The position numbers were made by a program, and so were the translations under genes. From Pirellulales bacterium (lineage in GTDB: Bacteria > Planctomycetota > Planctomycetia > Pirellulales > JANQPP01): a DNA stretch of 64,000 nt. How positions within the stretch are numbered: the stretch's first letter is position 1; every line of letters begins with the position of its first letter. The stretch spans positions 1 to 64,000 of the forward strand of contig JANQPP010000124.1 of NCBI GenBank assembly GCA_028289405.1, written 5' to 3'. The notes beneath the pieces were generated by a model. That model searched no databases. It was not told the origin of the DNA and saw nothing but the letters and a program-made list of their open reading frames with translations. Shown one piece after another: positions 8,428 through 21,317 of the stretch.

Positions 8428-9183
8428 ATGGCCACTACCTACCGTGTTTGTGTCATGATTTTTGCGTGTCTTTTTGTCAGTGCCAACGCCTATACTCGAG
8501 AACTATTTTCCGCCACATACACCGGTGCGGAGTTGTTGGGATTGCCCGGAGTGTCGTTCCCAACTCGAGAGCCATCGCTGGAAGGCAATTCGCTGGCTTT
8601 TCCGGAAGGGTCCTCGGACTTCGAAAAGCTGTTGTCGCTTCCGATTCTTCCAGAGGGTTCAATTAGCGGATTTGGCCAAATTGATATCTCAATCGAGGCA
8701 AACGTTACAAGGCTAAGCTCGACATTTAACGATTTTGATCCTTCTTTCGCGATTGGCGACGGCACGAACTTGGTGGCGTTCCTGGTCGCGGATAACAATG
8801 GTGGACTGGGAGCAGCCACATCCTACAATGATCTCGGCAGCACTGTTGAAGAAGTGCCTGTCAGCATTCTTTTCACTGATGCTGGAATTAACGCAGTAGA
8901 CGAATCACTTGATGTACATGCGAATTTTACGTTCACTCCTTCGTCGAGCACTGTTCGCGGAGGTTTTTTTGAAGAGTCTGGAGAGGCTGCCGTTCCCAAA
9001 ACGTTGAATTTCGAACATGCTTGGGAATTCGTGCTGATCGCCGAAAATCCGACGGAACGTTACCAGATCAATTCAATCAGCATTGTTACGGTTCCAGAAC
9101 CCAGCGGAGTGATAATCGCGGTAATCGGCCTGCTTGCCTTCGTTCCCATATTCCGAACTTCCGTCCGTAAGCAAGCGATATAG
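8428..9183 (+). CDS. PEP-CTERM exosortase substrate, paralog B
   Basis: A 251-residue protein with a signal peptide (about residues 1-22, ending SANAY), a beta-rich body and a PEP-CTERM tail (VPEPSGVIIAVIGLLAFVPIF followed by RTSVRKQ). It matches paralog A along its length at an appreciable but diverged level, so the duplication is old. AGGAA precedes the ATG by 7 bases and fits a ribosome-binding site. It ends 17 bases before the stop of the intact minus-strand DUF1549/1553 gene. The body resembles no domain I can name; a surface or matrix role is inferred from the sorting tail only. Base composition is visibly lower in GC than the neighbouring housekeeping genes. Confidence 0.85.
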   Translation: MATTYRVCVMIFACLFVSANAYTRELFSATYTGAELLGLPGVSFPTREPSLEGNSLAFPEGSSDFEKLLSLPILPEGSISGFGQIDISIEANVTRLSSTFNDFDPSFAIGDGTNLVAFLVADNNGGLGAATSYNDLGSTVEEVPVSILFTDAGINAVDESLDVHANFTFTPSSSTVRGGFFEESGEAAVPKTLNFEHAWEFVLIAENPTERYQINSISIVTVPEPSGVIIAVIGLLAFVPIFRTSVRKQAI

Positions 9184-9199
9184 CCATCGCATGCCAGCT

Positions 9200-11062
9200 T
9201 CAATCCACGTAGATAAACTCGCTGGCGTTGAGGAGGGCGAGGCAGGCGGTGAGCAGGTTTTCGCGTGCGTCGCGCGAGGGGGCGTTGAGCAACTCGGTGA
9301 ATCGCTGCGATTCCTCGGGGACCGGATGGCGGGAGAGCGTGATTAGGAATAGCCGCTCAATGAGTTCGGCGTGAGAAAGATGACGCGTGGAACGCTCTCG
9401 CCAGAGACGGTCTCGCAGATGCCGGGCGGACTGGAAGGCCAGTTCGCCGTTGAGCATTTCCAGCGATTGCAGAGCCGTGGTGGAGCGGTCACGTCGTGGG
9501 CAGGAAGCACCGGCGTCGGGACGGTCGAACACGTCGAAGATGGGGTATCGAAGATTGCGGCGGGCAAAGACATAGATACTCCGCCGCCCATGCTCGGCAG
9601 GCTGCCCACTCGCTTGCCACTGTCCCTTGAGCAGCGTGGAGAGCATTTCGGGTGGTAGTGGCGGCATCACGCTGGGGCCGCCGTATTCACGATTCAGTTG
9701 CCCGCTCACGGCCAGCAGGGCGTCACGGATGATCTCTCCTTCCAATCGCTTGCGAGGAAAGCGGCTATAAAGCTCGTTCTCGGAATCCTCTTCCAATGTG
9801 CGTTGCCAGGCAGCAAATGCATCTCCTTTTGCCGAATCCACGTGGCTGGCCTGCTGGTAGGTTGCCGACAGCAGTATCGTCCGATGCAGATGCTTGATGC
9901 TCCAGCCGCCGCGGCGAAACTCCGTGGCGAGCCAATCCAAGAGTTCGGGATGGGACGGCCCCTCGGCGATCAGCCCGAAGTCGCTGGGGTTTTCGCAGAG
10001 GCTCCGGCCAAAATGATGCTGCCAAACACGGTGGGCCATCACGCGGGCGGTGAGCGGGTTTTCAGGGGCGAAGAGCCAATCGGCCAGTGCTTGTCGAGGT
10101 TGGGACGTATCGAAGCCGGACCAGGCTACGGCTGTGCTGGCGATGCGAGGTGGCCGAGGACTCACGGCAGGACCTTGGCCATGCAGTTCACCACGATGAA
10201 AGAGCCAAGGCGCGACGGCTGCCGGCTGCGCGGAGAGCATCGCCACGGGCCGGTCCCGCCGCATTTCGGGGACTGCCGCTTCAAAGATGCTCCGCAGACG
10301 ATAAAAGTCGGCCTGGCTGATGGGGTCGTATTTGTGGTCATGGCACTGCGCGCAGTGCATTTGCAGGCCCAGCAGGGCGGCGCCCACGGTGGAGGTGATT
10401 TCGTTCAGCTTGTCATGCCGGCGGAGGTCCTGCTCATTGATGTCCGGCATGTCGGGACCGGCCAGGCAGAACATGGTGGCGATGGCGTCCTCCTCGCGGC
10501 CCGTGAAGTCGCCGGCCAATTGCAGGCGGATGAACTGGTCATATGGCAGGTCTGCGTTGAGGGCATCGATGACCCATTGCCGGTATTGCCAGGCATTCTT
10601 GCGAACTTTGTCATGCTCGAAGCCATCCGTCTCCGCGAACCGGGCCAGGTCGAGCCAATACTGCGCCCAGCGTTCACCGTAAGCGGGCGAGGCGAGAAAA
10701 CGATCGACCAGCCGCGCGTAGGCATCCGGAGAATCGTCCTGCTCGAAGCGCGTGACCTCCTCCGGAGTGGGCGGCAGCCCCAACAGGTCAAACTTCAGCC
10801 GGCGGAGCAACGTGGAACGCCGGGCCGGCGGCGCGGGGCGCAAACCCTCTGCTTCGAGCCGCCCGAGGATGAAAAAATCGACGTCCGCTTGAGGCCAGCC
10901 GGTGAGCTTCACATCTGGCAAAGCGGGACGCAAGATCGGCAAAAAAGACCAGTGGTCGCGATCGTAATCGGTGATGGGCTCTTCGTCGATTTCGGCCCGC
11001 GCAAGGCCGAGGGGTGACACGAGCAATAGGCAGACGATCACCAATCGTGGCCACGAAGTCAT
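9200..11062 (-). CDS. DUF1549-DUF1553 protein without N-terminal cytochrome domain (module 2)
   Basis: A 620-residue exported protein. A signal peptide (VIVCLLLVSPLGLARA) leads directly into DUF1549 without the CxxCH cytochrome domain that heads the homolog at 2183-4588. DUF1549 contains GERWAQYWLDLARFAETDGFEHD and the heme-type motif CAQCHDHKYDPI; DUF1553 follows with NPLTARVMAHRVWQHHFG. It is the second gene of a leftward operon: its ATG overlaps the stop of the DUF1501 gene by 4 bases (ATGA), so translation is coupled. The 3' end has a decayed duplicate at 8151-8290. Family function is not established; heme binding by the remaining CxxCH is plausible. Confidence 0.92.
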   Translation of the reverse strand: MTSWPRLVIVCLLLVSPLGLARAEIDEEPITDYDRDHWSFLPILRPALPDVKLTGWPQADVDFFILGRLEAEGLRPAPPARRSTLLRRLKFDLLGLPPTPEEVTRFEQDDSPDAYARLVDRFLASPAYGERWAQYWLDLARFAETDGFEHDKVRKNAWQYRQWVIDALNADLPYDQFIRLQLAGDFTGREEDAIATMFCLAGPDMPDINEQDLRRHDKLNEITSTVGAALLGLQMHCAQCHDHKYDPISQADFYRLRSIFEAAVPEMRRDRPVAMLSAQPAAVAPWLFHRGELHGQGPAVSPRPPRIASTAVAWSGFDTSQPRQALADWLFAPENPLTARVMAHRVWQHHFGRSLCENPSDFGLIAEGPSHPELLDWLATEFRRGGWSIKHLHRTILLSATYQQASHVDSAKGDAFAAWQRTLEEDSENELYSRFPRKRLEGEIIRDALLAVSGQLNREYGGPSVMPPLPPEMLSTLLKGQWQASGQPAEHGRRSIYVFARRNLRYPIFDVFDRPDAGASCPRRDRSTTALQSLEMLNGELAFQSARHLRDRLWRERSTRHLSHAELIERLFLITLSRHPVPEESQRFTELLNAPSRDARENLLTACLALLNASEFIYVD

Positions 11063-12480
11063 GCCAGAATGTCCTCCACGATTTCCACGTCGTCGGTAGG
11101 ACCGATGAGCCGTTCTTCGAGTCCGTTGTGATAGAAAGAAAGCCCCTCGTGGTCGATCCCCAGCAGGTGCAGCAGCGTGGCGTGGAAGTTGCGAATATGC
11201 ACTGCGTTTTCCACGGCACGGAGCCCAATCGGATCCGTGCCGCCGTACGCCATCCCTGCTTTTACACCGCCTCCGGCGAGCCAGATGCTATAGCCCCAAG
11301 GATTGTGGTCGCGGCCCTTCCCCGATTCGCTCATCGGCATGCGTCCGAATTCGCCCCCCCAGATCACGAGTGTGTCATTCCACAACCCGCGCTGCTTGAG
11401 ATCCTGCAACAGGCCCGCGATGGGGCGATCGGTGGCCAGGCAGTGCCGCGTGTGATTCTTGAGAACATCGCTGTGGGCATCCCAGCCATTGGTGTCGCCC
11501 GAGTAAAGTTGCACGAATCGCACGCCACGTTCGAGCATGCGGCGGGCGAGGAGGCAGCGCTGCCCGAAGTCGCGGGTTGTTGGCCGGTCGATACCGTACA
11601 GGCGGTTGGTGGCCGCCGTCTCCTGGGAGAAGTCGACCAATTCGGGCGCGGAGGACTGCATGCGAAAGGCGAGTTCGTAAGCCTCGATGCGGGCGTTTAG
11701 TTCGTCATCGAAACCGCGTGCCGCCAGATGTCGGCGGTTCAGAAAATCCGTAAGCTTCAGCGCCTCGCGCTGTTGGTCGTCGGAAAAACCGGAGGGAGGT
11801 TCTAAGTGCAGGATCGGCTGTCCGCTGGGGCGCATCGTCACGCCCTGATAGTTGGCGGGCAAGAAACCGCTCCCCCAAGCGGGCGGGCCACCTTTGAGTC
11901 CGCCGGCAGGATCGGGCAGTACGACGAACGCCGGCAAGTCTTCGTTTTCGCTCCCGAGGCCATAGGCGACCCAACTCCCCACACTGGGGCGGCCCATCAG
12001 GATACTGCCGGTGTTCATCTGGTACACCGACTGCGGATGATTCACGCTGTCGCCATGCATGCCGCGAATGACGCACAGGTCGTCCGCGTGCCGGGCAATT
12101 TCGGGAAGAAAATCGCTGATCTCCAGCCCCGATTCGCCGCGCGGACGGAACGGCTTGATCGGTCCCAAGAGCGGATTGCGGGCCACGTCGCGGCGGGTCT
12201 TCACCGCGCCGAAACTGTCGGGGATCGGTTTGCCCGCCAACCGCGCCAGTTCCAGTTTGGGGTCGAACAGGTCAACATGGCTAGGTCCGCCATGCATGAA
12301 GAGCCAAATGATACGTTTGACGCGGGCACGGTCGGGATCGAACCATGAAAGGTTCGTCACTGAAGCGGACGCGGGCCTTGCCCAGCGGTCCGGCAACAGC
12401 GTGGCCAGGGCCAAGGCGCCGAAACCGGCACCCCCTTGGAACAGAAAATCGCGTCGAGTGGCTGGCGCATCGGGGGGCAT
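11059..12480 (-). CDS. DUF1501 protein with Tat-like signal (module 2)
   Basis: A 473-residue DUF1501 protein. It begins with a twin-arginine type signal (ATRRDFLFQGGAGFGALALATLL) and carries the family blocks FMHGGPSHVDLFDPK, DTLVIWGGEFGRMPMSE and GRDHNPWGYSIWLAGGGV. The start is supported by GAGGAAG about 6 bases before the ATG. It is followed by, and overlaps by 4 bases, the DUF1549/1553 gene, so here DUF1501 comes first, the reverse of module 1. The deiodinase-like gene lies upstream on the same strand with a 157-base gap, so co-transcription is possible. An alkaline phosphatase-like fold is known for the family; the substrate is not. Confidence 0.92.
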   Translation of the reverse strand: MPPDAPATRRDFLFQGGAGFGALALATLLPDRWARPASASVTNLSWFDPDRARVKRIIWLFMHGGPSHVDLFDPKLELARLAGKPIPDSFGAVKTRRDVARNPLLGPIKPFRPRGESGLEISDFLPEIARHADDLCVIRGMHGDSVNHPQSVYQMNTGSILMGRPSVGSWVAYGLGSENEDLPAFVVLPDPAGGLKGGPPAWGSGFLPANYQGVTMRPSGQPILHLEPPSGFSDDQQREALKLTDFLNRRHLAARGFDDELNARIEAYELAFRMQSSAPELVDFSQETAATNRLYGIDRPTTRDFGQRCLLARRMLERGVRFVQLYSGDTNGWDAHSDVLKNHTRHCLATDRPIAGLLQDLKQRGLWNDTLVIWGGEFGRMPMSESGKGRDHNPWGYSIWLAGGGVKAGMAYGGTDPIGLRAVENAVHIRNFHATLLHLLGIDHEGLSFYHNGLEERLIGPTDDVEIVEDILA

Positions 12481-12637
12481 GGCATCTTCCTCGCCCAGGC
12501 AAAGATGCGGGGGATCGATAGGGATATCTTCAGACTATCAGTGTCGCGTGGCATTCGCAAATTCAATCTCGGCTGGCGAGGCTTATCACCGCGATCGTCG
12601 ATATTATTCCTCTCAAGCGAAACTCGCCGATTTTCCG

Positions 12638-13459
12638 CTAGAGGCGTACAACTCGCGCACGCCGACACTTCCCCACCCGCCGGACGCTATGACTAATCGT
12701 CCGTGCCGGGAGAACGCTCGCGGCGTTTTCGGCTTTCACTTCCTCTTCGGAGGTGACGTGCCGTTCTTCGCCGGCTTCCGCTGCATCCTCGGGAAGCGGT
12801 GGTTCGTGGCCCGTCTCGCGAAGTTTCTTCAACCACACCTGAGTGGCTCCCAAAGCGGGAGCAAAGCCAAACGGTTCACGCGCCGCGGCGACAGCTAGAC
12901 GACCATCGGTGCGGACAACAAAGATGCGGTCGGGCCAAGCTCGATATGCTTGATTGACGGCATCCCGCATATCATCGACGACGCAGGGAATCGTGAGTTG
13001 CTTGTGCGTGAGCAGCATGTTCGCGACGGAGCAGCGCTCACCGTAGTCATCGTGTTCGGTGATGCCTAATTCTTCCGCGTAGCTGACTGACCAGTCCGAA
13101 TCGGCGGCGTGGGCTTCATTGATATACACCAGCCGAAATTCGGCCAAGTCCTTGTAGGCCTGAAACATCTTTTCCATTTCGCCAACCTGGCGAAGAAAGG
13201 GAGGTCACGTGTAGCTCCCAAAGAAGAGGATCACCGGCTTCTCGCCGCGATGTTTCTTGAGGTCGAAGGTGTCCTCACCATCGAGTGATTTGAGCTTAAA
13301 GGTCGGCGCGAGCTGGCCCACCTTCAGCGCGTCACGTTCCGTGCGTCGTCCTCGTCTGCCCCGCTGACCCTCCACTTGGCTGGCAAGGCAAGCCAGCAAC
13401 GCTGCCGTGATCGTGACGGACAGGATTCGTTTTGCTTTCATTGCTTTCCTTTTCTCCAT
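12638..13459 (-). CDS. Iodothyronine deiodinase-like selenoprotein (UGA-encoded selenocysteine)
   Basis: If the single in-frame TGA (13205-13207, codon 85) is read as selenocysteine, the gene encodes 273 residues ending at a TAG. The N-terminus is an export signal (about residues 8-31; the LLAC stretch could also be a weak lipobox). A thioredoxin-fold domain follows, with LAPTFKLKSLDG, then PVILFFGSYT-U-PPFLRQ. This is the active-site signature of iodothyronine deiodinases, which read FGSCT-U-PSF or PPF in animals. Downstream landmarks of the family are present: LVYINEAHAADSDW (115-123 for EAHAADSDW), ANMLL, PCVVDDM, YRAWPDRIFVV. The reading frame stays intact on both sides of the TGA and a SECIS-like hairpin follows it. 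Bacterial members presumably act as thiol/selenol oxidoreductases; the substrate is unknown. Lying divergent from the PhoD-like gene, it leads module 2. Confidence 0.85.
13169..13199 (-). promoter_or_regulatory. Bacterial SECIS-like hairpin
   Basis: Directly after the TGA, TTCGCC (bases 11-16 after the TGA) pairs with GGCGAA (22-27) around the loop AGGTT. A lower stem of CTTTC with GAAAAG continues below a three-base bulge. In the E. coli fdhF SECIS the apical loop is AGGUCU and its first A is base 18 after the UGA; here it is base 17. Such hairpins bind SelB and recode UGA as selenocysteine. The fold was found by eye, without an energy calculation. Confidence 0.75.
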
Positions 13460-13677
13460 GGAATGGGAATACCGGCATGCAAACTATATCTACAACCTGG
13501 AAACCCCGCTTAGAGCCGAACGTGTCGATAGGGCTTTCGGATTCTTACCCATGCCGCCAATAGCGGCCAAAGCGAGGCCCGTCCATTTTCACGATTTTGC
13601 AAGACGCACCACGGGCGGCGCGATACGATGTGGCATCACCTTTTCCACGCCTGATGGCCACTTGGAGGTTATGAATC

Positions 13678-15510
13678 GTGCGAATGATCGTTCATGCGGC
13701 GCTGATTCTCGGGACATTTGCGGCGGCACGCGCTTCCGCCGTGGAAATTACGCATGGCCCCATCTTGGGCAGATTATCTTCCACCGGAGCCGGCGTGTGG
13801 GCTCGTACTAAAACCCCAGGTGAATTCCACGTGGTTTACAGCACGACACCCGATTTGCTAGATCCACAAGCGGAATCGGGGAGGTCCGCGCCGGCGCGGA
13901 CGGAGTTGGCCCACGACAATACCGGTTGGGTCCAATTGGAGAACTTGTCTCCCAATACGAAGTACTATTATCGATTGGCCACGGAAGAAGGCATCACCGA
14001 GCTTGCCGGTACGTTTCGCACGCTTCCTGAGCCGGACCAGTTCCGTCACGCCGAGAGAAACCCCGACGGCCTGTTCAATTTTCGTTTCGAATTTGCCTGC
14101 GGCAACAACCAGACGCCCGGGCAAGGGGCGGGCGCGGAGCTGCCGGCCTTTCGCACGATGCTGCGCCAGTTGCGGGATCAGGTTCACTTCTCCATCCAAA
14201 ATGGCGATTGGCTCTACGAAGATCAGCGCGACTACACGCCGGATGCTTGGCGGCGGCAAGTTGGGATCGAGCCGGGGCAAACACCGGAAACCGTCAACAC
14301 CGCCCCGACGATCGTGGGCGTGTGGGAGAATTACAAAATCTATCTGGAACGTGGCGCGAACCTCGCGGCCTACCATCGCCATGTGCCCACATTTTTTACA
14401 TTTGACGACCACGAGATTTTGAACGATGTATGGGGCGCGGGAACCCCTGGGCTGCGAGACCGGCGGGCCGTTTTTCGCGATATCGGCGTAAGGGCCTGGT
14501 ACGACTATCTCGGTTGGAGCAATCCGGTGTCTTTCCAGCAGGGAATTCATTTGGGAACGGCCCAGTTGCAGGCCGGCAGTGACGTGTTAGTCGATGAAGG
14601 TGCCGACTGTTCAAGGTTAGACCTCGGCCAGGCGGCCACGCTGCACGTGCATTTGGGCGGATCAACCGCCGGCGTCAACGACAACGCGCTCGATGGCGTG
14701 GGCGGCGATCCCAACGCGGGCGTGTATGAGATCGTGGAAGTGCTCGATTCGCGCCGGCTCAAAATCCGTCCCGCCGCGGACGCGGATGGTACGGCGGCCT
14801 ATTCCATCGGGCGTCGTTCGTACTATCGTTTCCGCGTTAGCAATTGCGACTTTTTCGTGGTGGATACGCGGACACACCGGCAAATGCACGATGTGCAGCG
14901 GCCCGACAATCCCGACGTTTCCATGCTCGGCGCGGCCCAAAAGAAGTGGCTGCTGGAAGGCATGCGGGAAAGCGATGCCGAGTTCCTGTTCGTCGTCTCC
15001 AGCGTGAATTTCATGGTGCCGCACGTGGGGGGCGGCGCGATCCGCACCCACAACAAGGATGATGCCTGGACCGTCTTCCTCCACGAACGGGAACAATTGA
15101 TCAACACCTGGGACGGACTGGGCAAGCCGGTCTTCGTGCTCACGGGGGACTTGCACAATAGCTTCGCGATCAAGATCACGGACCGCGTGTGGGAATTCGC
15201 GTCCGGTCCCCACAATAGCAACAACCACTGGTACAGCGATGAAGGGTCGCGTCCCGCCACGGGCAAGTTTCAATACGGCCCGCGAGCTTGCGATATTCGC
15301 TGGTCCACGTGGTTCGCCAACGACATTCCCCGCGAAAACTTGCAGCATCCCACTTACTGCGTGGTGCAGGTGAACAACGTCTTCAACAACCCCGTCCAAC
15401 TGGGAGAGGAGCGGTGGTTCGCCTACGAACGGCCCCAGGTCATTTTCCAATACTTCGATGGACGGACGGGTGAAATGCGGTACGCGGAGGCGATCCCTGC
15501 CGCGCGATAG
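13678..15510 (+). CDS. PhoD-like alkaline phosphatase/metallophosphoesterase, exported
   Basis: A protein of about 610 residues with a short signal peptide (MIVHAALILGTFAAARASA). An N-terminal fibronectin-like/PhoD_N domain follows (ITHGPILGRLSSTGAGVWART to about residue 125), then a PhoD-like metallophosphatase domain. Metal-site segments are FACGNN (the usual SCQ position), IQNGDWLYED, FFTFDDHEILNDVWG and LTGDLHNSF. A segment of about 90 residues around 290-380 (LQAGSDVLVDEG..., YSIGRRSYYRF) is inserted between catalytic blocks. GGAGG at 13664-13668 is 9 bases from the GTG at 13678 and 15 from the ATG at 13684, so GTG is favoured. PhoD enzymes are calcium/iron phosphodiesterases for phosphate scavenging; the substrate here is not predictable. 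Confidence 0.85.
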   Translation: MRMIVHAALILGTFAAARASAVEITHGPILGRLSSTGAGVWARTKTPGEFHVVYSTTPDLLDPQAESGRSAPARTELAHDNTGWVQLENLSPNTKYYYRLATEEGITELAGTFRTLPEPDQFRHAERNPDGLFNFRFEFACGNNQTPGQGAGAELPAFRTMLRQLRDQVHFSIQNGDWLYEDQRDYTPDAWRRQVGIEPGQTPETVNTAPTIVGVWENYKIYLERGANLAAYHRHVPTFFTFDDHEILNDVWGAGTPGLRDRRAVFRDIGVRAWYDYLGWSNPVSFQQGIHLGTAQLQAGSDVLVDEGADCSRLDLGQAATLHVHLGGSTAGVNDNALDGVGGDPNAGVYEIVEVLDSRRLKIRPAADADGTAAYSIGRRSYYRFRVSNCDFFVVDTRTHRQMHDVQRPDNPDVSMLGAAQKKWLLEGMRESDAEFLFVVSSVNFMVPHVGGGAIRTHNKDDAWTVFLHEREQLINTWDGLGKPVFVLTGDLHNSFAIKITDRVWEFASGPHNSNNHWYSDEGSRPATGKFQYGPRACDIRWSTWFANDIPRENLQHPTYCVVQVNNVFNNPVQLGEERWFAYERPQVIFQYFDGRTGEMRYAEAIPAAR

Positions 15511-15707
15511 TCGCTCACGCTTCTGGCCGAAATTAATTCAGAAACCGTCTGGAATTTCCAAGTATTTTTTTGATTTCTCGCGAAAAACCTCTACGATGAT
15601 TCTCCGCATCGGCATGTTCCCGGCTAGTGGCTTGTAATGAAGGCGGGGCCTGGGGTGTCTCCGCCGGCAAGGCCAGCCGTTCCCTTGCCCACTGGGAGGT
15701 TTTCGCC

Positions 15708-16760
15708 ATGAGACGATGCTCGGTCTGCTTTGGTGTCGCCACATTGACCTTGGCCGTTTTCGTGGACCATGCGGCGGCACAGAAGGTGTTGCTGTTGGTC
15801 AACGATCCCACCAACCTGATCAATCTCGATCCCGATCTGGTCGATCGCATGGAGTCACGGTTCGACGCGGAGGTCACCGTGGAGCGGGCCGACAATTTCA
15901 ATACCGCGGAGTTGGACGCGCTGGCGCGGGAACATGACATCGTGATCATTTCCGAATCCTTGGGGTCAGGCACGACACTGGAAAATGGCGCCTTCAAGCT
16001 ACAACAGACTCCCGTACCGGTCGTCTCCTTTGAAGCCTATATGTGGGAGGACGCATTCTGGGTGGAATTGCCCCAGTTCGACGGCTTCGGCAATACGGGC
16101 CGTACCGATTTGATCGGGGCCCCCGAAGCGGCCGGCTTGGAGGAAGCGCAAACCGAGATGTACATCACCGCCATGGGCGCGGACCATCCGCTCAGCGCCG
16201 GTTTCGATGAAGGCCCGCTCACCGTCTACAACGAGCTCTATAGCGTGAACTTTGGCCAGACCTCACCGAATGCCAAGGTGATCGCCACGGCGGACGCGGC
16301 GGGCGAATTTCCCGCCCATTTCATCTATGAAGAGGGGGACGAACTCGTCAACGGAACTACCGCGCCGGCGGCGCGGGTCGGGTTGTTCTTCGGGCAGGCG
16401 GCCAATCCAAATGCGAATTTCGCCCCCCGGCTCGACCTGTTCCACGACAACGCCTGGCGGCTGTTCGACGCAGTGCTCGAACTGGGGCTCGGCCCACTCC
16501 CTGATCCAGGAGATTTCAACGAAGACGGCACTGTCGATTTGGCGGACTACGAAATCCTCAAAGCCAATTTCAACACCGATGCCCGCTTCCGGCAGGGGGA
16601 TATGGATTTCAGTGGCCGCGTCGACCTGCGGGACTTCACGGCATTCGTGGAGGTCTTCAACGCTAATGCCGCCGCTGTCCCCGAGCCGGGCACGCTGTGG
16701 CTGCTGCTTTTGGGAGCAGGGGCCGTGCCTTGGGCCAAGCTCCGCCGCCGAATCGCGTGA
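15708..16760 (+). CDS. ThuA/GATase-like secreted protein with dockerin repeats and PEP-CTERM tail
   Basis: About 350 residues, starting at the ATG at 15708, which has GGGAGGT 7 bases upstream. After a signal peptide (ending DHAAAQ), residues about 25-255 begin KVLLLVNDPTNL and continue through HDIVIISESLGSG and GADHPLSAGF, resembling the glutamine-amidotransferase-like fold of ThuA-type proteins. Two calcium-binding dockerin/EF-hand-like repeats follow (DFNEDGTVDLADYEILKANF and DMDFSGRVDLRDFTAFVEVF). The C-terminus is PEP-CTERM: VPEPGTLWLLLLGAGAVPW then KLRRR. The ThuA-like assignment rests on overall pattern and is moderate; the dockerin and sorting signals are clear. An in-frame upstream extension to 15627 is open but lacks a ribosome-binding site. 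Confidence 0.8.
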   Translation: MRRCSVCFGVATLTLAVFVDHAAAQKVLLLVNDPTNLINLDPDLVDRMESRFDAEVTVERADNFNTAELDALAREHDIVIISESLGSGTTLENGAFKLQQTPVPVVSFEAYMWEDAFWVELPQFDGFGNTGRTDLIGAPEAAGLEEAQTEMYITAMGADHPLSAGFDEGPLTVYNELYSVNFGQTSPNAKVIATADAAGEFPAHFIYEEGDELVNGTTAPAARVGLFFGQAANPNANFAPRLDLFHDNAWRLFDAVLELGLGPLPDPGDFNEDGTVDLADYEILKANFNTDARFRQGDMDFSGRVDLRDFTAFVEVFNANAAAVPEPGTLWLLLLGAGAVPWAKLRRRIA

Positions 16761-16816
16761 AGTAAACGAATAAACTTGGGTGAACATCCTCCATCTTGGA
16801 CCATCGATCGCCCTCT

Positions 16817-16860
16817 GAAACCAGCGCTGAGGGTCTGCTCCGCGCTGGTTTCTTGATTTT
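16817..16860 (+). terminator. Hairpin terminator between convergent genes
   Basis: GAAACCAGCGC and GCGCTGGTTTC form a perfect 11-base stem with a 14-base loop, followed by TTGATTTT. It lies 57 bases past the stop of the PEP-CTERM gene and touches the stop of the opposing protease gene, so it could serve both directions. Confidence 0.85.
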
Positions 16861-17458
16861 ATCGGTCGGCAAAATACAAAATCTGCACGACCAACAGCAG
16901 GAACACAGCGGCCGTCGTCATCACCGCCACTCTCGGATTCACTTCGCCATCCCTGAGACCAAAATGCCGGCCCTGGCCATGCCACAAGGCCAGCCCAACG
17001 GGGATGGTCACGGCGCCGAAGGCCCACAACAGCCAGCGGGGCTGCCCCAAACGGAGCAGGTCTCCCGCGTCCCCCACGTGGCCGAAGGATCCGCATCCGA
17101 GATAAGCGCCGTTGGCTACCAGGCAGAAGCCAGCGAAGAAGCGCACGACGAAAGTACCGCCCAAACGGAGCCGGTGGCAGGCAACAAGCAAGGCCAGCGG
17201 CAACAGGCTGCCGCCGACCGGCCCGGCCCACGCGACGAGGGCTGGTCGCGGATTGTAGGCCAGATCGGTACGTGAGATGGCCAGCGGATGGAGCACGACC
17301 CGCTCGACACGCCCGCCCGTGATCCACGCTCCGAGGACATGGCCGAATTCATGCACGGCCATCATGCCCCACCAGGAAAACAGCACGGTCGAAACGATCA
17401 GCACCCATCGAGCAAGTCGGGATCGAAGCTTTCCGTCCATCGATGTTGCCCTAAACAT
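16859..17458 (-). CDS. M50-like membrane metalloprotease
   Basis: Up to 199 residues; the ATG at 17440 (six residues in) has AGGG at better spacing and may be the true start. The first membrane helix carries AVHEFGHVLGAW, the HExxH zinc motif within a membrane segment, typical of site-2/M50 peptidases of the M50B-like group. GHVGDAGDLL about 80 residues later could supply the third zinc ligand. Four or five further hydrophobic helices follow. M50 proteases cleave membrane-spanning substrates such as anti-sigma factors or act in signal-peptide clearance; no substrate gene is evident nearby. A cytoplasmic-membrane location is certain from hydrophobicity; proteolytic activity is inferred from the motif. 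Confidence 0.75.
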   Translation of the reverse strand: MFRATSMDGKLRSRLARWVLIVSTVLFSWWGMMAVHEFGHVLGAWITGGRVERVVLHPLAISRTDLAYNPRPALVAWAGPVGGSLLPLALLVACHRLRLGGTFVVRFFAGFCLVANGAYLGCGSFGHVGDAGDLLRLGQPRWLLWAFGAVTIPVGLALWHGQGRHFGLRDGEVNPRVAVMTTAAVFLLLVVQILYFADR

Positions 17459-17665
17459 TCACTGAGATACGGGTTGTGTCTCCATGATACACCTGGCCAG
17501 TGAACGCAACCGAAAGCGGTCCATAGCAATATGTGGACATGCAATGGTCAAGACGCTACGGTAATCAAGCCGCCCTTGCCCTAGTGGCGGAAGGGGCTAA
17601 ACTATGGGATTCGTATTTGTGGGTAGCTAAAAGATCGCGGCGGCGAGACGTTCGAGGTAGATGCC

Positions 17666-17944
17666 ATGGCACGGGTATGTGAGATTTGCGGCAAAAAGCC
17701 GCTCATTGGTAACCAGGTTACGACCCGGGGCAAGGCGAAATACCTGGGCGGCGTGGGTACCAAAATCACGGGAATCACCCGGCGGCAGTTCCGTCCCAAT
17801 TTGCAGCGAGTGCGGATCACCACGGAGAACGGCACGCACAAAACGATGCGCATCTGCACGCAGTGCCTCCGCAGCGGAGCGGTGACCAAGCTGGTCCGCC
17901 AAGCCCCCTTCAAACTGCCCAAGCAGGAGACGAGCAAGTCCTGA
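17666..17944 (+). CDS. rpmB: 50S ribosomal protein L28
   Basis: A 92-residue bL28 protein. The N-terminus MARVCEICGKKPLIGNQV is diagnostic, and TQCLRSGAV near residue 70 completes the family pattern. Both CxxC pairs (Cys5/Cys8 and ICTQC) are kept, so this is the zinc-binding C+ form. A GAGGTAG ribosome-binding site precedes the ATG. It is followed after 50 bases by gatC on the same strand, so rpmB and gatCAB may be transcribed together. It is a structural component of the large ribosomal subunit. Confidence 0.97.
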   Translation: MARVCEICGKKPLIGNQVTTRGKAKYLGGVGTKITGITRRQFRPNLQRVRITTENGTHKTMRICTQCLRSGAVTKLVRQAPFKLPKQETSKS

Positions 17945-17994
17945 CGGTGCTGTCACCCGTTTTTGCATCGCTCCAAGCACGGAATCGCGTTGTC

Positions 17995-18285
17995 ATGAGC
18001 CTTTCCCGGGAAGCGGTCACCAAAGTGGCCCTACTAGCGCGTCTGGAATTGACGCCCGAGGAATTGGACTCCATCACTAGCCAATTGGGGCAGATCGTGG
18101 ACTACGTGCAGCAGCTTTCCTCCGTGGATACGGAGGGGGTTGAGCCCATGGCCCACGCCATGGAGCAGCATAACGTGTTTCGCGCGGACGAGGTCAGGCC
18201 TAGCTTGCCCCGCGAGGAGGCCCTGGCCAACGCCCCACGCCACAATGACGAATATTATCGCGTGCCCGCCGTGCTGGGAGACTAG
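17995..18285 (+). CDS. gatC: Asp/Glu-tRNA amidotransferase subunit C
   Basis: A 96-residue GatC from the ATG at 17995, the usual length for the family. Key segments are VTKVALLARLELTPEELDSITSQL near the N-terminus and VEPMAHAMEQHNVFRADEV in the middle, with the C-terminal EYYRVPAVL. An in-frame open region extends upstream into rpmB but does not belong to the protein. GatC clamps GatA and GatB together in the enzyme that converts Glu-tRNA(Gln) and/or Asp-tRNA(Asn) to the amidated forms. It is the first gene of a contiguous gatC-gatA-gatB operon, with gatA 51 bases downstream. Confidence 0.95.
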   Translation: MSLSREAVTKVALLARLELTPEELDSITSQLGQIVDYVQQLSSVDTEGVEPMAHAMEQHNVFRADEVRPSLPREEALANAPRHNDEYYRVPAVLGD

Positions 18286-18336
18286 GCAGCGAGCAGCGGC
18301 ACGCGACATCGACACGGCACTATTCTCTGAGCGACC

Positions 18337-19833
18337 ATGCAGCTTACTGAAACCTCCGCCGTGGACCTTGTGGAAGGGCTGCAAGCCGGTCGGTGGACCG
18401 CCGTGGAGGTGGCGCGATCTTTTCTGGAACGGATCAGCGGGAAAGACCCCGAAATTGGCGCGTTCCTCCAGGTCCATGCCGATGCCGCGCTCGAGCAGGC
18501 GGAACGCATCGATGCGCGTCGCGCCACGGGAAAATCCGTGGGCAAACTGGCCGGACTCCCCTTGAGCCTCAAGGACGTCCTTTGCACTCGTAGCCAGCCC
18601 ACGACCTGCGGATCCCGCATGCTGGAAAACTTTCAGCCTCCCTTTGATGCCACCTCGGTTGCCAAGTTGCGCGACGCGGACGCCGTCTTTCTCGGCAAGG
18701 TGAACATGGACGAGTTCGCCATGGGCAGTTCCTGTGAAAACTCGGCTTTTCAGGCCACGCGAAATCCCTGGAACTTGGAATGCATCCCGGGCGGTTCCAG
18801 CGGCGGATCAGCAGCCTGCGTGGCAGCGGGCATGGCCCCCATCTCGATTGGCAGTGATACCGGTGGGTCGGTGCGGCAGCCGGCGGCACTGTGCGGAGTG
18901 ACCGGGCTCAAGCCGACCTATGGCCGCATCAGCCGGTATGGCCTCGTGGCCTTCGCCAGCAGCTTGGACCAAATCGGCCCCGTGGGGACCTCCGTGAGGG
19001 ACGTGGCACTATTGCTCGAAGTCTTGGCAGGGCACGACCCGCTCGATTCCACGTCGATCGACGCCCCAGTGCCACCCTATTCACAAACCGTGGAACAGCC
19101 GCTCAAGAACCTGACTTTGGGAATCGCCAAGGAGCATTTCGAGAGCGGATTGGATGGCGATGTCGAAAGCGCCGTGCGGGAGGCGTTACGAGTCTACGAG
19201 TCGCTCGGCGCCACGATCAAGGAAGTCTCCCTGCCGCACGCGCCGCACGCGGTCGGCACGTACTACATCATCGCCTGCTGCGAATGTTCCAGCAATTTGG
19301 CCCGGTACGATGGCGTGCATTACGGCCACCGCACGGACGTTTCCCAGATGCTGGCCGAAGGTGGCAATTCCAACGACGACCTCACGCCGCTGGAGCGTAT
19401 GTATTGCCGCAGCCGTGCCGAAGGTTTTGGACCCGAGGTCAAGCGGCGGATCATGCTGGGGACGTACGCGCTCAGCGCCGGCTACTACGATGCCTACTAC
19501 CTGCAAGCCCTGAAAGTCCGCCGCCTGATCCGGCAAGATTTCGACAAGGCGTTCGAGGAAGTAGATTTGCTAGTGGGGCCGGTCATGCCCACTGCCGCGT
19601 ACAAGTTGGGCGAAAAGGTCGAAGATCCGTTGTCGATGTATCTTTCGGATCTGTTCACCGTCAGCGCCAATCTCACTGGCCAGCCGGCCATTTCCGTCCC
19701 TTGCGGATTCACCTCCGGCGGCCTGCCGATTGGCCTGCACCTACAGGCTCCCCCCATGGAAGAAGAACGGTTGTTGCGGGGTGCCTGGATGTTCCAAAAC
19801 GCCACCGACTGGCACCAGCGGAGGCCCCAGTGA
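18337..19833 (+). CDS. gatA: Asp/Glu-tRNA amidotransferase subunit A
   Basis: A 498-residue amidase-signature enzyme. The catalytic Ser-cisSer-Lys triad lies in LSLKDVLCTR (Lys), GGSSGGSAA and IGSDTGGSVRQPA (Ser residues). The following GVTGLKPTYGRISRYGLVAFASSLDQIGP is strongly typical of GatA. It releases ammonia from glutamine or asparagine and passes it to GatB. Length is normal (about 480-500). The stop overlaps the GTG start of gatB by 4 bases, so translation is coupled. Confidence 0.97.
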   Translation: MQLTETSAVDLVEGLQAGRWTAVEVARSFLERISGKDPEIGAFLQVHADAALEQAERIDARRATGKSVGKLAGLPLSLKDVLCTRSQPTTCGSRMLENFQPPFDATSVAKLRDADAVFLGKVNMDEFAMGSSCENSAFQATRNPWNLECIPGGSSGGSAACVAAGMAPISIGSDTGGSVRQPAALCGVTGLKPTYGRISRYGLVAFASSLDQIGPVGTSVRDVALLLEVLAGHDPLDSTSIDAPVPPYSQTVEQPLKNLTLGIAKEHFESGLDGDVESAVREALRVYESLGATIKEVSLPHAPHAVGTYYIIACCECSSNLARYDGVHYGHRTDVSQMLAEGGNSNDDLTPLERMYCRSRAEGFGPEVKRRIMLGTYALSAGYYDAYYLQALKVRRLIRQDFDKAFEEVDLLVGPVMPTAAYKLGEKVEDPLSMYLSDLFTVSANLTGQPAISVPCGFTSGGLPIGLHLQAPPMEEERLLRGAWMFQNATDWHQRRPQ

Positions 19834-21317
19834 ACGCTACCCAATCCGCGACAGCGCATGATGTGGTGATCGGGCTGGAAGTGCACGTACAACTGGCCAC
19901 TCAGTCGAAGCTGTTTTGCAGCTGCGCGACGCGGTTCGGCGCGCCTCCGAACACGCTCACCTGTCCCTTGTGTATTGGCATGCCGGGGACCTTGCCTGTG
20001 ATGAACCGCCACGCCTTCGAACTGGCACTGCAAACCGCCGTCTCGCTCGATTGCCAGATCGCCCCGTTCACGAAGTGGGACCGCAAAAATTACTACTATC
20101 CCGACCTGCCGAAGGGCTACCAAATCAGCCAATACGATCTGCCCTTCAGCCACGACGGGCACTTGGACACCTATGACCCCAAGGGGAACCTTCCCGTCCG
20201 CCGCGTGGGCATCATCCGCGTCCACTTGGAGGAGGACGCCGGCAAGAGCATGCATGACGAGGCCGCGGGCAAAAGTGACAGCCTGATCGACCTCAACCGG
20301 ACCGGCACGCCGCTGCTGGAAATTGTCACCGAACCGGACATGCGCTCCCCCGCCGAAGCCAAAGCTTTTCTCACGGAACTCAAGCTGCTGCTGACGTACC
20401 TGGGCGTTTCCGACTGCAACATGCAGGAGGGGAGCCTGCGGGTCGACGCGAATATCAATCTCCACGTTCCGCGAAATGGCGAGACTATCGCCACGCCGAT
20501 CGTGGAAGTCAAGAACATGAACAGTTTCCGCGCCGTGGAACGGGCCTTGGAATACGAAGCCGGGCGACAGTGGGAAGAGTGGCAGGCTACGGGCCAGAAA
20601 ATGGGAGACGTTCCCAAGCAGACGCGGGGCTGGGACGACGCGGCAAATCTCACGCGACCGCAACGGCACAAGGAGGAGTCGAGCGACTACCGCTATTTCC
20701 CGGACCCGGACCTGGTCCCGGTCGTGGTCTCTCCAGAGGAAATCGAGGTGATCACCAAATCCTTGGGCGAATTGCCTGCAGCGCTCCGTTCACGTTTAGA
20801 ATCGGAATATGGATTGAGCGCGTACGACAGCGACGTCTTGGTGAATCAAGGCCGGAGCTTGGCCAGCTATTTCGTACAAGTGGCGGAAGCTTGTGGCAAC
20901 GGCAAATTGGCCAGCAATTGGATCCAGCAGGATATCCTGAGGCTGCTCAAGGAGCGGCAGGAAACGATCGACGATTTCCCCGTTTCCGCCGCCGCCCTCG
21001 CCGACCTGTTGCGTAAGGTGGATCAAGGTGAACTCGACACCAGCAAAGGGCGGGACGTCCTCGGCGGCATGATCGACTCGGGGCAGCCGGCTGAAGATGT
21101 GATGCTTGAATTGGGGATTGCTGCCGTCGACGAAAGCGAACTCACCGCGCTCTGTGAGCAACTGCTCGTGGAAAACGAGCGGATCGTGGCCGATGTGCAA
21201 GCCGGGAAGGTGCAAGCCATCGGCGCCCTGATCGGCCAAGCTAAAAAGCGGAACCCCAACGTCAATCCGGGCCGCGTGCGCGAGATTTGTCTGCAACTTA
21301 TCAGCAAACGCGCGTAG
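19830..21317 (+). CDS. gatB: Asp/Glu-tRNA amidotransferase subunit B
   Basis: About 495 residues from a GTG start that overlaps the gatA stop (GTGA). The reading frame is open far upstream inside gatA, but family homology begins at HDVVIGLEVHVQL, supporting the GTG. The zinc-ribbon cysteines are visible (FCSCATRFG and TCPLCIGMPG). The kinase-like catalytic core follows (KNYYYPDLPKGYQISQYD), and the C-terminal tail is the YqeY-like tRNA-binding domain. GatB phosphorylates the misacylated tRNA and transfers the ammonia supplied by GatA. Length and domain order are standard. Confidence 0.96.
   Translation: MNATQSATAHDVVIGLEVHVQLATQSKLFCSCATRFGAPPNTLTCPLCIGMPGTLPVMNRHAFELALQTAVSLDCQIAPFTKWDRKNYYYPDLPKGYQISQYDLPFSHDGHLDTYDPKGNLPVRRVGIIRVHLEEDAGKSMHDEAAGKSDSLIDLNRTGTPLLEIVTEPDMRSPAEAKAFLTELKLLLTYLGVSDCNMQEGSLRVDANINLHVPRNGETIATPIVEVKNMNSFRAVERALEYEAGRQWEEWQATGQKMGDVPKQTRGWDDAANLTRPQRHKEESSDYRYFPDPDLVPVVVSPEEIEVITKSLGELPAALRSRLESEYGLSAYDSDVLVNQGRSLASYFVQVAEACGNGKLASNWIQQDILRLLKERQETIDDFPVSAAALADLLRKVDQGELDTSKGRDVLGGMIDSGQPAEDVMLELGIAAVDESELTALCEQLLVENERIVADVQAGKVQAIGALIGQAKKRNPNVNPGRVREICLQLISKRA

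Follow-up and report, generated by a model that had tools for sequence, protein, structure and literature searches.

The minus-strand gene at positions 13459-12638 of contig JANQPP010000124.1, from a Pirellulales bacterium, very probably encodes a selenoprotein of the iodothyronine deiodinase family, to which the animal enzymes that take iodine off thyroid hormones belong, and its sequence suggests an exported selenoenzyme of thioredoxin fold. The whole stretch of DNA analysed, 64,000 nucleotides in length, is referred to here as the window. Bacterial deiodinase-like proteins with selenocysteine (Sec) have been on record since 2005 and listed for twenty years; the new elements are this member, its clade and the statistics of its hairpin. 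The gene also illustrates how standard ORF calling splits selenoprotein genes that contain UGA.

The gene and its reading frame

When TGA is translated as U, positions 12638-13459 on the minus strand hold a single frame of 273 residues, with its sole U at position 85 and TAG as terminator. An earlier note on this DNA, in which the strand was not given, had proposed that two frames of the same register, joined by one TGA at codon 85 (13205-13207, minus strand), form a full deiodinase domain and that the gene ends in TAG. Both proposals hold: the Pfam model PF00837 (T4_deiodinase) matches residues 43-202 at 98.7 bits (gathering cut-off 27), unbroken at the TGA, and all the deiodinase motifs quoted in that note are present in the joined protein. 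The split foreseen there for automated annotation is what table 11 yields, namely ORFs of 84 aa (13205-13459) and 179 aa (12638-13177). The NCBIfam model NF038285 for deiodinase family proteins scores 145.9 bits over residues 46-202, under its 250-bit cut-off; of the 347 positions of this model, the window protein covers just 177-334.

A probable export signal occupies about residues 1-31 (13367-13459, minus strand). Its basic start and the hydrophobic peak at residues 15-25 agree with the earlier description of the protein as exported, and since the N-terminus resembles a signal peptide, an action outside the cytoplasm is probable. At the other end, nothing in the orthologs L076 and L078, both of which end soon after an HVT motif, corresponds to the last 25 or so residues (12638-12715, minus strand). 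This tail may reflect a changed or lost stop codon, or a lineage-specific addition.

The UGA site across homologs

A scan of GTDB contigs with one peptide pattern gave at least 571 relatives, of which the best 80 were compared. With a site pattern that allowed any residue, TGA occupies the site of codon 85 in 72 of these 80 and a Cys codon in the other 8; being drawn from the best 80 of 571 relatives, the figure of 72 is no unbiased share. The nearest homologs, L071 (from a Pirellulales MAG) and L072, both have TGA. Additionally, 28 matches above cut-off were obtained from 296 genomes of the same order, comprising 14 with TGA, 13 with Cys and one fragment without the site, and one of the Cys-form genes has an in-frame TAG as well. 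The site pattern applied to this order sample permitted U or C only, and the motif is missing in L032 among its 30 loci. At least four loci (L016/L071, L012/L117, L021/L121 and L023/L129) belong to both sets. The Cys-containing homologs to which the earlier note had pointed for comparison thus make up 8/80 homologs and 13/28 order-sample matches, with Cys at the UGA site.

Some members of the order sample depart from the common pattern. A distant second group (L033:1723-1767 and L034:1525-1569) has FGCLTUPPF with an in-frame UGA in genomes that both carry SelB. Both members fall under the Pfam cut-off, and their hairpin makes 3 of 7 pairs and does not fit the usual register. In the Cys-form protein of L014 (871-3348; 826 aa), the deiodinase domain is accompanied by EF-hands and by a CMD (AhpD-like) domain. 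In L032 (1174-3327), a deiodinase-like stretch just below the Pfam cut-off precedes many ankyrin repeats.

The SECIS-type hairpin

A hairpin of the bacterial SECIS type follows the UGA on the minus strand at 13178-13194. Its 7-bp stem is formed by 13194-13188 and 13184-13178, the 3-base loop GGU lies at 13187-13185, and the first stem base is 13 bases past the first base of the UGA. As the arms lie in conserved codons, a synonymous-recoding control was used, in which each gene was recoded 2000 times by its own codon usage. All 7 pairs form in the window gene, whereas its recoded versions average 4.41 (P=0.0085). Across the 73 UGA genes, the window included, the mean is 5.99 of 7 pairs against 3.82 recoded (sd of the set mean 0.12), whereas the 8 Cys genes average 2.25 pairs against 2.76. 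Individually, 48 of the 73 UGA genes and none of the 8 Cys genes fall below P=0.05 in this control.

Covariation was assessed in alignment A2, which holds 14 of 16 UGA rows of the order sample and leaves out the distant, sub-cut-off L033 and L034. Standard pairs fill 96.9% of the hairpin cells in these 14 genes, 21 cells show a change in both partners, and covariation scores 0.666 versus 0.233 in shuffles. Pairing drops to 30-50% in slid registers, and the same columns pair in 27.5% of cells in the 13 Cys genes. The SECIS-like hairpin named in the earlier note is therefore well borne out by its stem and loop, by the recoding test, by covariation in UGA genes and by its absence from Cys genes. 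Against it counts that this register gives at most 5 of the 7 pairs in 24 of the 73 UGA homologs.

In eight of these 24 UGA genes (L096, L097, L122, L123, L130, L133, L138 and L139), the longest stem sits about 4 bases further downstream, and seven of these eight loops start with GG. It is possible that they represent a second SECIS register within the deiodinase-like family. An Rfam search of window positions 9000-20000 returned three weak matches, all below gathering scores, with no SECIS or tRNA family among them.

Selenocysteine machinery

The host genome is a draft assembly of 6.4 Mb in 219 contigs, estimated to be 94.6% complete. Profile searches found selB (384.6 bits) and selD (289.1 bits), and selA is present but divided between two contig ends, which leaves about 28 positions of its profile unseen. 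A genome search for selA, selB, selC and selD had been proposed in the earlier note, where absence of all Sec machinery was held to speak against a selenoprotein. With three of the four genes found, the machinery is not wholly absent; selC, the tRNA-Sec gene, was not found in this incomplete assembly. It was sought in the assembly with RF01852 (150 of 871 candidates scored), with an exact pattern and with a 3-mismatch pattern built from relatives, none of which recovered it. ARAGORN likewise reported no tRNA-Sec in the window and the sel contig pieces, and Rfam returned nothing up to E 0.1 on the pieces carrying selA, selB and selD. Eight of the 18 RF01852 matches were examined as candidates for the host selC and proved to be Ser, Leu, Gly and Tyr tRNA genes; the other ten are weaker. 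An assembly gap is the likely explanation, given a completeness of 94.6% and the contig ends that interrupt selA as well. Among the matches listed, the selC neighbours in ten relatives looked varied, so no site can be predicted for the missing host gene. As a separate observation, selD at G000:C180:10839-11753 (L051) lies within an open frame of 768 aa and may be fused to another domain.

Among relatives, the machinery follows the UGA form of the gene. SelB was searched in 46 genomes of the same order and occurs in 14/14 UGA-form genomes (host included), 2/12 Cys-form genomes and 7/20 genomes without the family, these 20 being drawn from 270 sampled; for G040 and G215, it was counted from matches below the Pfam cut-off. 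The difference between UGA-form and Cys-form genomes gives a Fisher value of 1.2e-5 with kinship ignored. Moreover, 10 of 11 further UGA-form genomes (10/12 with the host) yielded a tRNA-Sec, as did none of the six Cys-form genomes searched, and all ten have the anticodon tca according to ARAGORN.

Linkage was also seen in the wider homolog set, where the deiodinase gene has selA, selB or selC no further than about 6 kb away at 8 of 80 loci, which look like about three related groups. All nine neighbour proteins tested, of eleven listed, exceed curated selA or selB cut-offs. Especially, the Phycisphaerales MAG locus L072 (2243-6561) carries selB, selA, tRNA-Sec and the deiodinase gene in this order on a single strand, and its deiodinase-like protein is 70% identical to the window protein over the aligned domain. 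At L074, selA, tRNA-Sec and the deiodinase gene have the order seen at L072.

Two alternatives to the selenoprotein reading can be weighed on these data. The gene could be a Cys-type gene broken when TGC or TGT became TGA, through a nonsense mutation or a sequencing error. The existence of Cys homologs and the tRNA-Sec missing from the host assembly would suit such an origin, but it is extremely improbable given that TGA recurs at the same codon in most of the best homologs, the two nearest included, that the hairpin pairs beyond what protein coding demands, and that the frame stays intact past the stop. It is also very unlikely that UGA has been reassigned to another amino acid, or that the host has lost Sec decoding and makes only an 84-residue piece. 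The undetected selC is what this second alternative can call upon; against it are whole selB and selD genes, the presence of selA, and a site that alternates strictly between TGA and Cys codons in all 80 homologs even though any residue was permitted. The earlier judgement in favour of a selenoprotein and against a nonsense mutant is accordingly sustained by the conserved UGA, the covarying hairpin, the three sel genes, and SelB and tRNA-Sec that track the UGA form. For this selenoprotein, SelB carrying Sec-tRNA would bind the hairpin on the ribosome and insert Sec85, and the product would then be moved out of the cytoplasm.

Structure and active site

Among proteins of solved structure, mouse Dio2 (E 1.1e-18) and Dio3 (1.7e-16) are closest in sequence. 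Codon 85 falls at the catalytic Sec of both, a position held by Cys in the mutants that were crystallised. An AlphaFold model of the window protein, made with alignment A5 (56 rows, including 51 of the 80 homolog loci), has a mean pLDDT of 84.9. The top PDB entries by E-value in a Foldseek search with this model are Dio3 4tr3 (2.1e-15) and Dio2 9h48 (8.4e-15); ResA comes next at 4.0e-10, a gap of about five orders of magnitude. TM-scores over the target do not place Dio2 and Dio3 (0.79) above ResA (0.76-0.84). The folds that follow include ResA, Bcp and AhpE, and the AhpC-TSA Pfam model also matches the window protein.

In deiodinases, Sec is described as surrounded by a relay to which Ser, Thr, Tyr, Glu and a pair of His residues belong (PMC11592359). 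All six of these residues are kept in the window protein together with Sec, as S82, T84, U85, Y112, E115, H117 and H136 align with Dio2 and Dio3. Ser82, Tyr112, Glu115 and His117 are found in all 83 bacterial Sec rows, three of which are near copies of others, and Thr84 is found in 81, with Ser in the other two. The relay as such does not set the Sec forms apart, since the 20 Cys rows have Tyr112 and Glu115 throughout and His117 in 18; Ser82 is found in 9 of them. His136 is distributed differently, occurring in 30/83 Sec rows and 0/20 Cys rows. Within the window's clade, as defined by the tree, 28 of 32 rows have it, against 2 of the 71 other bacterial rows. In human Dio1, the second His (His174, matching His136) gives an inactive enzyme when changed to Gln and an active one when changed to Ala, and rat Dio1 tolerates H174Q (in passages of PMC9141512). 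The weight of the second His is thus uncertain, and it is not strictly needed. Where Dio1 and Dio3 have a proximal Cys, the window protein has Tyr83 and Dio2 has Ala. The window protein also lacks a UxxC motif, i.e. a Cys three residues after Sec, the sequence there being U85-P-P-F88.

Possible function

In the proposed chemistry, the Sec85 selenolate would reduce a small oxidised or halogenated substrate, helped by Ser82 and Thr84 and by a Tyr112-Glu115-His117-His136 proton relay, after which an external thiol would turn Sec85 back to the reduced form. In Dio1, the proximal Cys resolves Sec. With Tyr83 at this position in the window protein, an outside thiol is the likely reductant.

As regards the substrate, there seems to be about an even chance that the protein is a peroxiredoxin-like peroxidase or a general thiol oxidoreductase of the cell envelope, with the deiodinase fold and relay applied to another substrate. 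The AhpC-TSA match, the appearance of ResA, Bcp and AhpE behind the deiodinases in the fold search, and the fusion to a CMD (AhpD-like) domain in the Cys-form relative L014 all point in this direction, but the Tyr-x-x-Glu-x-His motif of deiodinases, which peroxiredoxins are not known to need, is kept. The other candidate is a true reductive dehalogenase, with the full-relay clade taking halogens such as iodine off small aromatic compounds. This is unlikely, although the complete relay with its second His, the inactivity of human Dio1 H174Q and the first place of Dio2 and Dio3 by E-value would all favour it. The active H174A form and the tolerant rat enzyme reduce the force of the mutant argument (PMC9141512), the proximal Cys of Dio1 and Dio3 is absent, and Tyr112, Glu115 and, for the most part, His117 recur in Cys rows. 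Furthermore, a different function was expected in bacteria by the 2005 paper, in the passages that concern them (PMC1088965), and no hint of halogen metabolism was seen among the neighbours in the 28 of 81 loci that were read by eye. Of these sequence features, the CMD fusion of the Cys-form L014 leans towards peroxide chemistry and the kept relay towards dehalogenation.

Relation to known systems and evolution

Zhang et al. 2005 described four Sec and six Cys deiodinase-like sequences from the Sargasso Sea with a bacterial SECIS and suggested a redox role (PMC1088965), and the GOS survey of 2008 lists 22 deiodinase-like sequences in a table that gives no motif (PMC2398784). Reviews of 2022 and 2026 give the family motif as UxxC in their passages on these proteins (PMC9312934, PMC13188914), and the latter calls the functions of deiodinase-like and most such selenoproteins largely unknown. 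The main text of a paper on planctomycete selenoproteins contains no word starting with "deiodin" (PMC4807772), and among the titles and abstract openings listed in searches of open-access literature no reported functional test of a bacterial deiodinase-like protein was found. The window protein shares with the sequences of the 2005 and 2008 reports the PF00837 domain, an active site built on Sec or Cys, a bacterial SECIS behind the UGA and the suggested redox function. They come from marine metagenomes, whereas the window protein belongs to a clade that mostly has His136 and is itself without UxxC.

Animal Dio1-3 have in common with it Sec in FGSxTUPPF, the Ser/Thr/Tyr/Glu/His/His relay and the fold; it differs from them in Tyr83 in place of the proximal Cys of Dio1 and Dio3, in the UGA-adjacent SECIS-type hairpin and in its probable signal peptide. 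Within the same order, EF-hand-deiodinase and EF-hand-deiodinase-CMD proteins contain the same domain with Sec or Cys. These are multidomain proteins, unlike the window protein, and His136 occurs in none of the 23 aligned order-sample rows besides the window; the domains were assigned by Pfam for L014 only, and the other EF-hands by eye.

A quick tree of 105 rows was built, three pairs of which are identical; it leaves out L144 (too short) and L001, L016, L031, L032, L033, L034 and L038 of the order sample. On this tree, 7 changes are required for the Cys label and 6 for the His136 label. Dio2 and Dio3 form a long branch whose point of attachment lies between the 32 rows of the window's clade and the 71 remaining bacterial rows, with SH-aLRT values of 78 and 92 from the quick search. 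These supports warrant no closer placement, and a resolved origin of the animal deiodinases was set aside as unsupported by this tree. That the window's clade consists of true bacterial dehalogenases, deiodinase-like with Sec and the whole relay and close to the ancestral form of the animal enzymes, would be a far-reaching reading and appears quite improbable. With its full relay, its compact single domain and an ortholog behind selB-selA-selC, the protein is nevertheless a good candidate for asking whether dehalogenation predates thyroid hormones.

Genomic neighbourhood

The earlier note had the gene heading a DUF1501/DUF1549 module. Both genes are indeed found downstream on the same strand: the DUF1501 gene (11059-12480, minus strand) starts 157 bases downstream of the deiodinase-like gene and is followed by a DUF1549/DUF1553 (PSCyt2, PSD1) gene (9200-11062, minus strand). 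The part of the claim that does not stand is a conserved arrangement. Within the window's clade of 32 rows, a DUF1501-type neighbour is seen in the window only and a DUF1549-type neighbour in the window and L084 only. Over 81 loci, DUF1501-type neighbours occur at 8, against four or five by chance on a rough estimate from the density of the host genome alone (39 copies, about one per 164 kb). DUF1549-type neighbours occur at 6 of the 81, and both types at 5 (L131, L132, L133, L144 and the window). A functional partnership was rejected as unsupported in view of the 39 DUF1501 copies and the neighbours missing in the clade, and both genes are treated as probable bystanders; a local partnership is possible. 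A cluster of opposite-strand neighbours at 28 loci was set aside, as example coordinates suggest antisense frames over the deiodinase gene itself. On the other side of the gene, a PhoD-like phosphatase gene (13678-15510, plus strand) is transcribed divergently from it.
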